Assembly: GCA_012517475.1 (NCBI GenBank)
Contig: JAAYUV010000017.1
Coordinates: forward strand, 1-41,871
DNA: 41,871 bases
Direction of reading: 5' to 3'
Source: Peptococcaceae bacterium
GTDB taxonomy: Bacteria; Bacillota; Desulfitobacteriia; Desulfitobacteriales; Syntrophobotulaceae
The notes below the pieces were generated by a model, which saw only the letters and a program-made list of their open reading frames with translations, was not told the DNA's origin and ran no database searches. This document shows, in pieces, positions 4,615 through 34,423 of the stretch (within the stretch, counting starts at the first letter, position 1; every line of letters begins with the position of its first letter). The position numbers and the translations under genes were made by a program.

Positions 4615-4711
4615 TTCCGACGTCCTTTACTCATAGAATAAGCAATGATTTCATCAATATATTTTCATACGGATAGCAAAATATTATTCATTTAGTTAAA
4701 TAATACGTAAT

Positions 4712-4746
4712 ACAATTCATAAATGGATTGACAATTCATATGAATT
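4712..4746 (+). promoter_or_regulatory. Candidate operator of the nif promoter
   Basis: The 10-mer ACAATTCATA occurs at 4712-4721 and again at 4731-4740, 19 bp apart (about two helical turns). The second copy is part of a perfect 14-bp palindrome, AATTCATATGAATT (4733-4746), lying in the spacer between -35 and -10. That is where a repressor would block polymerase. No known consensus (GlnR, TnrA, Fnr, NrpR) is matched by eye, so the binding protein is unknown. Confidence 0.5.
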
Positions 4747-4756
4747 TAATTATAGT
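4728..4756 (+). promoter_or_regulatory. SigA-type promoter of the nif operon
   Basis: TTGACA (4728-4733), a 17-bp spacer and TATAGT (4751-4756) make a near-consensus housekeeping promoter. Transcription would start at about 4763, giving a leader of roughly 365 nt before nifI1. No sigma-54 -24/-12 element is seen upstream of nifI1 or nifH. Confidence 0.8.
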
Positions 4757-4791
4757 ATTTATATGATTTTTGTTGAAAGGCAAAGCAATGG

Positions 4792-4826
4792 CGCTTTTTC
4801 TCTGCTGAGAGAAGAAGCGTTTTTTT
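4792..4826 (+). terminator. Leader terminator 1
   Basis: A 12-bp stem (4792-4803 with 4808-4819, one G-T pair, loop GCTG) is followed by seven Ts. It begins only about 30 nt after the predicted transcription start, so it would stop most transcripts unless antagonised. Confidence 0.8.
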
Positions 4827-4968
4827 ATTACTATCTGGGGCTTAAGACTCTTTATTTGTCTTATATTGTTCTGAAGGCAAAGGCGCTTTCTTGTTCAAGG
4901 TATTTACCCGGACAAAGGAAGCGCCATTACCTATATTTATGAAGAATATTTTACTCATAATAAGCAAT

Positions 4969-5019
4969 GGCGCTTTTTAACTGACCTAAGAATGTCGGAT
5001 AAAAAGCGCCTTTTATTTT
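4969..5019 (+). terminator. Leader terminator 3
   Basis: GGCGCTTTTTA (4969-4979) pairs perfectly with TAAAAAGCGCC (5000-5010), an inner GAC/GTC stem lies in the loop, and TTTTATTTT follows. Confidence 0.75.
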
Positions 5020-5027
5020 AAGCAATG

Positions 5028-5075
5028 ATGCTTTTCGTTACAGGAAACCCTGCGAACTAAAAGCGTTTTTTGTTT
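5028..5075 (+). terminator. Leader terminator 4
   Basis: GCTTTT (5030-5035) pairs with AAAAGC (5059-5064), continued by GTT/AAC after one mismatch and capped by CAGG-AAAC-CCTG. TTTTTTG follows. It ends about 40 nt before the nifI1 ribosome binding site. Confidence 0.75.
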
Positions 5076-5128
5076 AGAACCATTACTTGGACTTAATAGT
5101 CCAAATAAAGAAAAAGGAGGATCTGAAT

Positions 5129-5446
5129 ATGAAGATGATTCGAGCCATTGTACGACCAGAAAAGAGTGAAGTAATCTCAGAAAAATTAGCCGAAGCGGGA
5201 ATCGTATCCATGACCAAGATGCATGTGTTTGGCCGGGGTAAGACTAAAGGATTGCAAATAGGGGATATTCACTATGACGAGTTTCCCAAAGTCATGCTGA
5301 TGATGGTGGTTGAGGATCAGGAGACAGACAAGACTGTGGAGATTATTCTCGAAACCGGCAAAACAGGCAATATCGGGGACGGAAAAGTCTTCGTCTCTAA
5401 CGTAGAGGCTGCTTATACAGTAAGAACCGGTCAAGCCGGGCTGTAA
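5129..5446 (+). CDS. nifI1: NifI1, PII-family nitrogenase switch protein
   Basis: A 105-residue PII (GlnB-like) protein: MKMIRAIVRPEKSEVISEKLAEAGI is the N-terminal beta-alpha element, followed by the T-loop region (GRGKTKGLQIGDIHYDEF) that is characteristic of the NifI1 branch, and the C-terminal KTGNIGDGKVFVSNVEAAYTVRTG nucleotide-binding strand. NifI1 with NifI2 binds NifDK and inhibits it when nitrogen is replete; 2-oxoglutarate and ATP relieve this. The ATG at 5129 is set by AAGGAGG at 5114-5120; a TTG 14 codons upstream is not supported. The T-loop lacks the Tyr-51 uridylylation context of GlnB. First gene of the operon. Confidence 0.92.
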   Translation: MKMIRAIVRPEKSEVISEKLAEAGIVSMTKMHVFGRGKTKGLQIGDIHYDEFPKVMLMMVVEDQETDKTVEIILETGKTGNIGDGKVFVSNVEAAYTVRTGQAGL

Positions 5447-5460
5447 AGGAGTGACGGCAA

Positions 5461-5847
5461 ATGAAAGAAATTATTGCCATTGTCAGGCGTCACCAGGTCC
5501 CAGCTTCAAAAAAAGCCTTAGAAGAGGCAGGATTCAATGCCTTAACAATTCAAAGCGTGGAGGGTCATGGTAAACAAAAGGGCGCCGGCGGCTGGGCGGC
5601 AGAGGTTGATCCCCATCTCAGACCGCTTTTAAAACATGAAATGCCTGTTCAGGATGCCCTCATGAAATGGATTCCGAAAAGGATGCTCACTTTGGTTGTC
5701 CAGGATCAAGAAGTTGATAAAGCAGTCGAGGCGTTAATCAGGGCAAATCAAACCGGTCATATCGGAGACGGAAAAATTTTTGTTTGCCCCCTAGAAGAAG
5801 TCCTGCGGGTTCGAACAGGTGAAAATGGTCCTAGAGCTGTATCCTGA
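5461..5847 (+). CDS. nifI2: NifI2, PII-family nitrogenase switch protein
   Basis: A 128-residue PII homologue, longer than NifI1 because of a bigger T-loop (KGAGGWAAEVDPHLRPLLKHE, roughly residues 40-61), the hallmark of NifI2. The C-terminal half (QTGHIGDGKIFVCPLEEVLRVRTGE) is the standard PII ligand-binding end. It acts with NifI1 as a hetero-oligomer on the MoFe protein. It starts 14 bases after nifI1 with AAAGGAG as binding site. The pair sits ahead of nifH here, as in heliobacteria, rather than between nifH and nifD as in methanogens and many clostridia. Confidence 0.92.
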   Translation: MKEIIAIVRRHQVPASKKALEEAGFNALTIQSVEGHGKQKGAGGWAAEVDPHLRPLLKHEMPVQDALMKWIPKRMLTLVVQDQEVDKAVEALIRANQTGHIGDGKIFVCPLEEVLRVRTGENGPRAVS

Positions 5848-5871: not shown

Positions 5872-6756
<885 letters not shown>

Positions 6757-10422: not shown

Positions 10423-10725
10423 GGGGGGGTGCAAAGCGACTAGTTTCCGCAATGTATAGACAGCGTGAAGCGAAGCACGATAACGGCACACAATGTGCCT
10501 AATTTCAGCCATGCCACGGATGGCATAAATGGCTGATCGGAGCGAGGCTGTTTCGACGTCCATGGATGGACTGGGAAGAAATGTCCAGTGGACATTTCTT
10601 CCGATGCCATGGATGGCATTGAGCGGCTCGCCACGGATGGCCGCAAAGGCCTACTAGGCCTTTGCGCTGCCGAAAGCGGCTATACATTACGGAGACCTCT
10701 CTTAAGTAGTTTTGAAACAGCCCCC
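10423..10725 (-). repeat. Hairpin-rich MITE-like element, copy B, inside the nif operon
   Basis: An inverted, diverged copy of the element at 1-263 and 41708-41871. The well-preserved end is on the right (CTTAAGTAGTTTTGAAACAGCCCCC, read in two blocks at about 10701-10725); the left end (GGGGGGGTGCAAAGCGACTAG) is eroded. The core runs from CGCAATGTATAG (10448) to CTATACATTACGG (10692), about 245 bp. It keeps the same stems, for example GAAGAAATGTCC paired with GGACATTTCTTC. One stem reads GCAAAGGC/GCCTTTGC where copy A has GTGAAGGC/GCCTTCAC, so both arms changed together. It separates fdx from nifE and sits right before the nifE ribosome binding site. Confidence 0.88.
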
Positions 10726-33918: not shown

Positions 33919-34170
33919 ATGCGACTAAGAAAACCATACACTAAAAATTATACAGAAAATATTGGAGGCTATCAATTAGTTCTGCCATTAAATTACGAAG
34001 TGTTAATACCGGAAGATGACTCAGTCCGACTGCTAAGCCAAATACTGGAGGGATTAAACTACGAGAAATTATACAGGGCGTACTCTTCCACCGGAAGAAA
34101 ACCTGCAGTCGAACCCAAAATCCTGTTTAAGGTATTAACTTACGCTCAGACAAGGCTACGTAATGTATAG
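33919..34170 (+). pseudogene. IS1182-family transposase, N-terminal fragment
   Basis: The first about 75 codons encode the transposase N-terminal domain (DUF772 type): LVLPLNYEVLIPEDDSVRLL, then LYRAYSSTGRKPAVEPKILFKVLTYA. The frame is then diverted into the palindromic insert and stops at 34170. The full protein is about 450-500 residues, so the DDE catalytic domain is lost. TATAAT at about 33907 may be its promoter. Confidence 0.85.
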
Positions 34171-34258
34171 ACAGCGTCAACGGAGCAAGGATGCGGAGTG
34201 CGGCAGATTGCGCCAAGGAGGGCGCAATCTGCCGAAAGCGTCAATGCATTACGTAGCC
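34154..34258. repeat. Short palindromic core related to the MITE-like element
   Basis: GGCTACGTAATG (34154-34165) pairs perfectly with CATTACGTAGCC (34247-34258), and the centre is a perfect 14-bp stem (34201-34214 with 34221-34234, loop AAGGAG). The two ends differ in their inner parts: one reads CGTAATGTATAGACAGCGTC, the other (reverse strand) CGTAATGCATTGACGC then TTTCGGCAGAT. The same two distinct ends bound the 245-bp cores of copies A-C. So this is a short version of that core, with a different interior. Confidence 0.8.
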
Positions 34259-34423
34259 CTGCCTTGAGATGGTTTATTAAGTCATGCAAAGAATCAGTCA
34301 TTTAGAAAAAACCAGATTTAAATCTTACGATTTAAGCTGGGTTATATTTTCTTTATAAAATAAAGAAGGTATCGCTCACTACCTTTTAAGTAGTTTTGCG
34401 ACACCCTCTTTCTGTAAAGACTA

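Follow-up and report, generated by a model that had tools for sequence, protein, structure and literature searches.

The nif leader and its hairpins

What decides whether transcription that starts in front of this nitrogenase operon reaches the genes? The window (the whole stretch of DNA analysed, 41,871 nt) contains nifI1, nifI2, and nifH behind a leader at positions 4763-5128, whose folding is far more stable than that of shuffled sequences (z = -7.7). This leader is very probably a tandem transcription attenuator of the ANTAR type, with one hexaloop per unit and no P1 hairpin. The case for this reading draws on sequence, alternative folds, conservation, gene context, and co-occurrence with ANTAR genes, and the features of the locus are collected in Table 1. 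The near-consensus promoter that an earlier note had placed ahead of the leader is present, and the nif transcript is predicted from the promoter consensus to start at approximately 4763. All other transcription starts given here are also consensus predictions.

Table 1. Features of the nif leader and the first genes of the operon (positions in the window)
Feature	Position	Strand	Remarks
Upstream DNA box ATACGTAATACAATT	4703..4717	.	5' of the nif -35; core ATACGTAATACA conserved in relatives
Sigma-70-type promoter TTGACA-17-TATAGT	4728-4756	+	11/12 consensus bases; same layout in L039, L041, L042
Unit 1 ANTAR-type P2 hairpin AAAGC[AATGGC]GCTTT	4782..4797	+	
Unit 1 intrinsic terminator	4790..4828	+	14 bp stem and T-run; excludes P2; -19.5 kcal/mol
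Unit 2 P2 hairpin GAAGGC[AAAGGC]GCTTTC	4873..4890	+	
Unit 2 long hairpin	4882..4926	+	No T-run
Unit 3 P2 hairpin AAGC[AATGGC]GCTT	4962..4975	+	
Unit 3 intrinsic terminator	4967..5018	+	T-rich tail; -22.9 kcal/mol
Unit 4 P2 hairpin AAGC[AATGAT]GCTT	5020..5033	+	
Unit 4 intrinsic terminator	5027..5072	+	T-run; -15.9 kcal/mol
nifI1 (P-II family), first gene of the controlled operon	5129..5446	+	Pfam P-II, 4.7e-23
nifI2 (P-II family)	5461..5847	+	Pfam P-II, 2.4e-24
nifH	5902..6756	+	Pfam Fer4_NifH, 1.8e-134

The 17-mer AAGCAATGGCGCTTTTT occurs twice exactly (4783-4799 and 4962-4978) and twice in diverged form (at 4875 and 5020), as had been described, and the genome (3.68 Mb) has no further exact copy. 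The count of three T-runs on four hairpins also held: hairpins 1, 3, and 4 have one, and hairpin 2 (GGAAGCGCCATTACC) does not. The 17-mer had further been taken for the 5' arm of each hairpin. It does overlap the hairpins, but its AAGCAA lies outside the terminator stem in hairpins 1, 2, and 4 and largely outside it in hairpin 3. AAGCAA and GCTT form a separate hairpin of 4-6 bp, distinct from the terminator stem, and AAGCAATGGCGCTTTTT is itself the mini-hairpin AAGC[AAUGGC]GCUU, with A1 and G4 in its hexaloop. The hexaloops of units 1-4 are AAUGGC, AAAGGC, AAUGGC, and AAUGAU (starting at 4787, 4879, 4966, and 5024), and all of them have A1, G4, and a C-G closing pair. The earlier statement that the loops lack the A1/G4 hexaloop is therefore not borne out. 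A1/G4 is absent from the terminator loops, but these are the wrong place to seek it, since the hexaloop sits in the alternative fold. The 366 nt of the leader hold four A1/G4 hexaloop hairpins, while 5000 dinucleotide shuffles gave a maximum of two, and 4955 of them had none.

The arrangement of the two folds suggests a switch. A hexaloop hairpin is found at the 5' base of the large hairpin in 4/4 units, and in units 1, 3, and 4 it overlaps a true terminator. In each unit the small and the large hairpin share one arm, which is 3' in the former and 5' in the latter, and the two folds are thus mutually exclusive. The large folds have predicted energies of -16 to -23 kcal/mol, compared with -2 to -5.5 kcal/mol for the small hairpins, and thus a protein would be needed for the small hairpin to win.

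Identity of the repeat

The repeat matches a known protein-binding element. In eut terminators, the ANTAR box AGCAANGRRGCUY (13 nt) is found at the 5' base and forms the P2 hairpin with an A1/G4 hexaloop (Ramesh et al. 2012, PMC3369931). AGCAATGGCGCTT and AGCAATGATGCTT agree with this box at 12/13 positions, and the window copies AGCAAUGGCGCUU and AGCAAUGAUGCUU likewise agree with the published box at 12/13. Judged by its sequence, the repeat is the ANTAR antiterminator hairpin P2. The earlier note had proposed serial antitermination by a previously undescribed RNA regulator. The kind of mechanism stands, but a wholly undescribed regulator is unlikely given the ANTAR A1/G4 hexaloops.

A metabolite- or metal-sensing riboswitch, or some other RNA-binding protein, could also switch terminators, and terminators close to a promoter together with conserved sequence are typical of riboswitches too. 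However, the conserved part here is a single hairpin of 14-18 nt with a six-base loop, which is too small for a known aptamer class, and the unit precedes many nitrogen genes and fits the known protein-binding box. The leader (4763-5128) has no Rfam match at gathering thresholds. We consider this explanation very unlikely.

ANTAR control of nif is already known, since ANTAR sites have been described in Pelobacter carbinolicus, on its nitrogenase units, and in Desulfotomaculum acetoxidans, whose nitrogen genes carry 13 (PMC3369931). In Geobacter sulfurreducens, gnfK and gnfR are named as the nitrogen-fixation sensor kinase and response regulator. GnfR of Geobacter sulfurreducens is an ANTAR antiterminator. 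These systems resemble the one described here in their ANTAR-type control of nif, amt, and gln and in having several sites per regulon. The Pelobacter and Desulfotomaculum sites came from a two-hairpin model (PMC3369931), whereas those described here have single hexaloops and a pseudo-receiver ANTAR protein. The dual-hexaloop EutV attenuators of the Enterococcus faecalis eut genes (PMC3369931, PMC8934654) share the A1/G4 hexaloop, the C-G closing pair, the box at the 5' base of the terminator, the mutually exclusive folds, and the presence of several attenuators per system. In contrast to them, the present system has no P1, up to four units per leader, a putative reader protein without the phosphorylated Asp, and nitrogen fixation and assimilation genes rather than eut genes. 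AmiR/AmiC of Pseudomonas and NasR of Klebsiella also work by ANTAR antitermination, and AmiR likewise has a pseudo-receiver (PMC8934654), but their leaders are of the two-hairpin kind (PMC3369931).

Nitrogen genes with the same unit in this genome

Across the 3.68 Mb, seven matches to the pattern AGCAANGRNGCTT were found. Three lie in the nif leader, one lies upstream of glnN (glutamine synthetase III), and the other three have no overlapping terminator. The last three were set aside; those on contigs C24 and C76 are in frame and probably coding, and the third, on C105, has no overlapping terminator either. Relaxed searches added amtB genes on three contigs (C40, C112, and C12) and a chemoreceptor (MCP) gene on C23, each with an overlapping terminator or a long hairpin with a T-rich tail. 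By position, the nitrogen genes under a hairpin and terminator are nif, glnN, and the three amtB genes.

The stems vary by gene (AAAGC/GCTTT, AGGC/GCCT, TGGC/GCCG, and ATGGC/GCTAT), while the loop is constant (AANGRN), which argues for recognition of an RNA loop and not for a DNA operator. An operator for a repressor or activator, located where transcription starts, would account for an AAGC-N6-GCTT inverted repeat just 3' of promoters. It would not account for a conserved center, AANGRN, that is non-palindromic and strand-specific, or for terminators that overlap the repeat again and again, and nif repeats 2-4 lie 100-260 nt past the start. The operator explanation is accordingly highly improbable.

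Chemoreceptor-type (MCPsignal) genes lie under a hexaloop-terminator unit at G000:C23 (L211:905-2440) and G010:C77 (L206:1290-2288). This gene context suggests that chemotaxis may be tied to nitrogen status.

Conservation across the order

Hairpins and covariation in related genomes had been named as a check on the switch, and both are present. Within the family, the nif leaders of G012, G007, G023, and G021 have two units each, and in G010 two units precede nifH. Across the order, a P2 hairpin with a terminator is found in 39/44 glnN leaders (0.3% in shuffles) and 16/28 amtB leaders (0% in shuffles). The other 12/28 amtB leaders have no scored site, and none was scored at the inspected glnN copies of G031, G032, and G038. 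Sites also occur 5' of gltB (G354) and 5' of the HutP-family gene that heads the nif operon in Desulfosporosinus. An alignment of 51 distinct hairpins (alignment A1) contains 52 double changes compared with 15 in shuffles, a count that is partly circular because the sites were picked with a stem filter; the frequency in leaders is the unbiased test. Loop positions A1 and G4 and the closing pair are invariant in the alignment.

Three strong terminators could simply insulate the nif operon or set a low constant level of its expression. This leaves unexplained the conservation of AAGCAA outside the stem, the A1/G4 loop, and the recurrence of the unit on glnN, amtB, and glnA-ANTAR, and we assign it a very low probability.

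The ANTAR protein

An attenuator of the ANTAR type calls for an ANTAR protein, and one was found in this genome (197 aa, C67:10130-10723, PF03861 6.3e-12). It aligns with Rv1626 and EutV across the receiver and ANTAR domains. The receiver lacks the phosphorylated Asp, with PDLILCGWD where PDLVLMD is expected. In our alignment with EutV, residues R142, K143, E160, Y164, R168, M172, and R175 are kept, among them the G4-contact residues E160 and Y164 and the loop plug M172, while four contacts are altered (K147Q, K149V, N173T, and R177T). The gene adjoins a phosphodiester-glycosidase gene and not nitrogen genes.

The order contains two types of ANTAR protein, type A with a phosphodiester-glycosidase neighbor and type B linked to glnA/glnN, and both lack the Asp. 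Only type A is present in three single-contig genomes that are 99-100% complete (G012, G002, and G021), and only type B in the g4 genomes and G019; all of them carry sites. From this distribution, either type seems to be sufficient.

The unit and the ANTAR gene tend to occur together. Among the family genomes that have glnN, 16/17 carry a unit there, and the exception, G005, has no ANTAR gene. The unit is present in 15/15 family genomes that have an ANTAR gene as well as glnN. G018, whose genome is 88% complete, has the glnN site, and an ANTAR gene was not found in it. A unit also precedes the glnA-ANTAR operons of G008 and G019 (L246 and L247, minus strand) and the ANTAR gene itself in G026 (L356). 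The position of these units points to likely autoregulation. These autogenous units connect the hairpin with ANTAR proteins on evidence separate from the literature.

The missing P1 hairpin

In eutP both hairpins are required, with a linker of 5-12 nt (PMC3369931), and P1 is the recruitment hairpin in the structural model (PMC8934654). A P1, taken as an A1/G4 hexaloop on a stem of 4 bp or more, was found at 0/39 glnN and 0/16 amtB sites (0/55), as by chance. The four window units also have none when A1/G4 hexaloops with a stem of 3-8 bp and a linker of 0-20 nt are sought. The nearest candidate, AAAA[AGCGCC]TTTT at 5001-5014, was rejected, being the AU-only 3' arm and T-run of terminator 3 and a by-product of any such terminator. 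The P2 hairpins do not pair up as P1-P2 among themselves, since they lie 92, 87, and 58 nt apart, much farther than the 5-12 nt linker allows.

Room for a P1 is also limited. At 21/50 sites with a recognizable promoter (at least 9/12), no more than 14 nt separate the predicted start from P2, and this gap is less than the approximately 17 nt of the shortest P1 plus linker, so P1 cannot fit there. At window unit 1 the gap between start and P2 is about 19 nt and contains no A1/G4 hexaloop.

The main alternative is a canonical dual-hairpin ANTAR attenuator whose P1 has diverged, with no hexaloop or a weak stem. The requirement for P1 in E. faecalis eutP speaks for it, the initial 20 nt of the nif RNA can form a weak hairpin, and unit 2 of a Desulfofundulus leader (L103) has a P1-like TAC[AAAGAT]GTA of 3 bp. 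Against these stand the searches and the short gaps described above and the lack of a conserved hairpin 5' of P2 in relatives. In addition, the detector does recover a canonical P1, GATTGCAC[AATGGA]GTGTGATC with a linker of 8, in the eut leader L265; in this small positive control (n = 2), 2/2 eut sites with a terminator are dual. A divergent P1 is unlikely overall.

The leader is therefore filed as one that would act like ANTAR antitermination yet is kept out of the two-hairpin motif, because P1, the defining feature of that motif, was sought and is absent. Since P1 is essential in eutP, sites without it may be weak with the ANTAR protein of this genome. A single hexaloop has been proposed as the minimal ANTAR motif from the EutV-RNA structure (PMC8934654). 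Here too the binding unit would be one hexaloop, but that motif was proposed from a structure, while the present sites are a natural architecture found across an order. What we call new is a single-hexaloop variant of the ANTAR attenuator, P1-less and stacked, which appears to guard a nitrogen regulon. In the open-access literature, no paper was found that reports a set of natural P1-less, or stacked, ANTAR sites.

A proposed serial gate on nitrogenase

The single-hexaloop attenuator leads to a model in which binding, termination, the direction of control, and the nitrogen signal are all predicted. Transcription from the promoter at 4728-4756 would meet strong intrinsic terminators before nifI1. 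The probable reader, the single ANTAR protein found in this genome, would bind and stabilize the hexaloop hairpin, blocking the terminator so that the polymerase reaches the next unit, and nif mRNA would be made only if all units are passed. Under nitrogen surplus the terminators would stop transcription ahead of nifI1. When nitrogen is scarce, the ANTAR protein, active independently of phosphorylation, would hold each hexaloop open. With four units in series, the leak rates of the individual units would multiply to give the total leakage. Unit 2, which has a hexaloop but no T-run, may be a decayed terminator or a recruitment or pause element.

A broader proposal covers the order around this genome, which includes Desulfosporosinus and its relatives. 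There, each terminator would have a single hexaloop, and a pseudo-receiver ANTAR protein would sense nitrogen without phosphorylation; at nif the four units would act in series as a gate, with unit 2, which has no terminator, taking over from P1 as the recruitment hexaloop. We rate the chances of this proposal as even.

These sites bear on two questions that the EutV-RNA structure did not settle, namely whether nature uses single hexaloops and what P1 contributes (PMC8934654). Dozens of natural sites lack P1, and some predicted starts lie only a few bases before the hexaloop. G012, G002, and G021, with one ANTAR protein each, are simple genomes for a direct test. The putative regulon is concrete, with nif, glnN, amtB, glnA, gltB, and a chemoreceptor gene, in a group that includes Desulfosporosinus, and the nif leader would be a natural four-step gate on nitrogenase.

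Other elements near nitrogen genes

Other putative control elements were found at these loci. In Desulfosporosinus nif loci L069-L083, a gene for a HutP-family antiterminator (PF09021, 3.5e-35) heads the operon about 1 kb 5' of nifI1. The stretch between the HutP gene and nifI1 is rich in NAG triplets and contains a conserved element, CCGGGCACC-hairpin-GGAGCGG...AGAGAGCCC, that ends in a terminator and has no Rfam match in the loci tested. It is possibly a second nif gate in Desulfosporosinus, controlled by HutP or a ligand; no paper linking HutP and nitrogenase was found.

Several hairpins with AYGGAY loops precede nifE in the window (10500-10680, the fdx-nifE gap). Those at 10516-10640 pass a loose loop filter and were rejected as ANTAR units, as they have no terminator and resemble loops of the TwoAYGGAY/CsrA type. 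A TwoAYGGAY RNA (Rfam RF01731) lies at 34133-34278. The AYGGAY elements may possibly bind CsrA, which would place one such site inside the nif operon.

The DNA box upstream of the nif promoter is probably an operator for some DNA-binding regulator. Its core also occurs ahead of the nif -35 in L005 and L007 and, in two copies, in L008, and this conservation suggests a second control of nif, at the level of initiation. TGTATAC is found 5' of the -35 in many amtB and glnN promoters.
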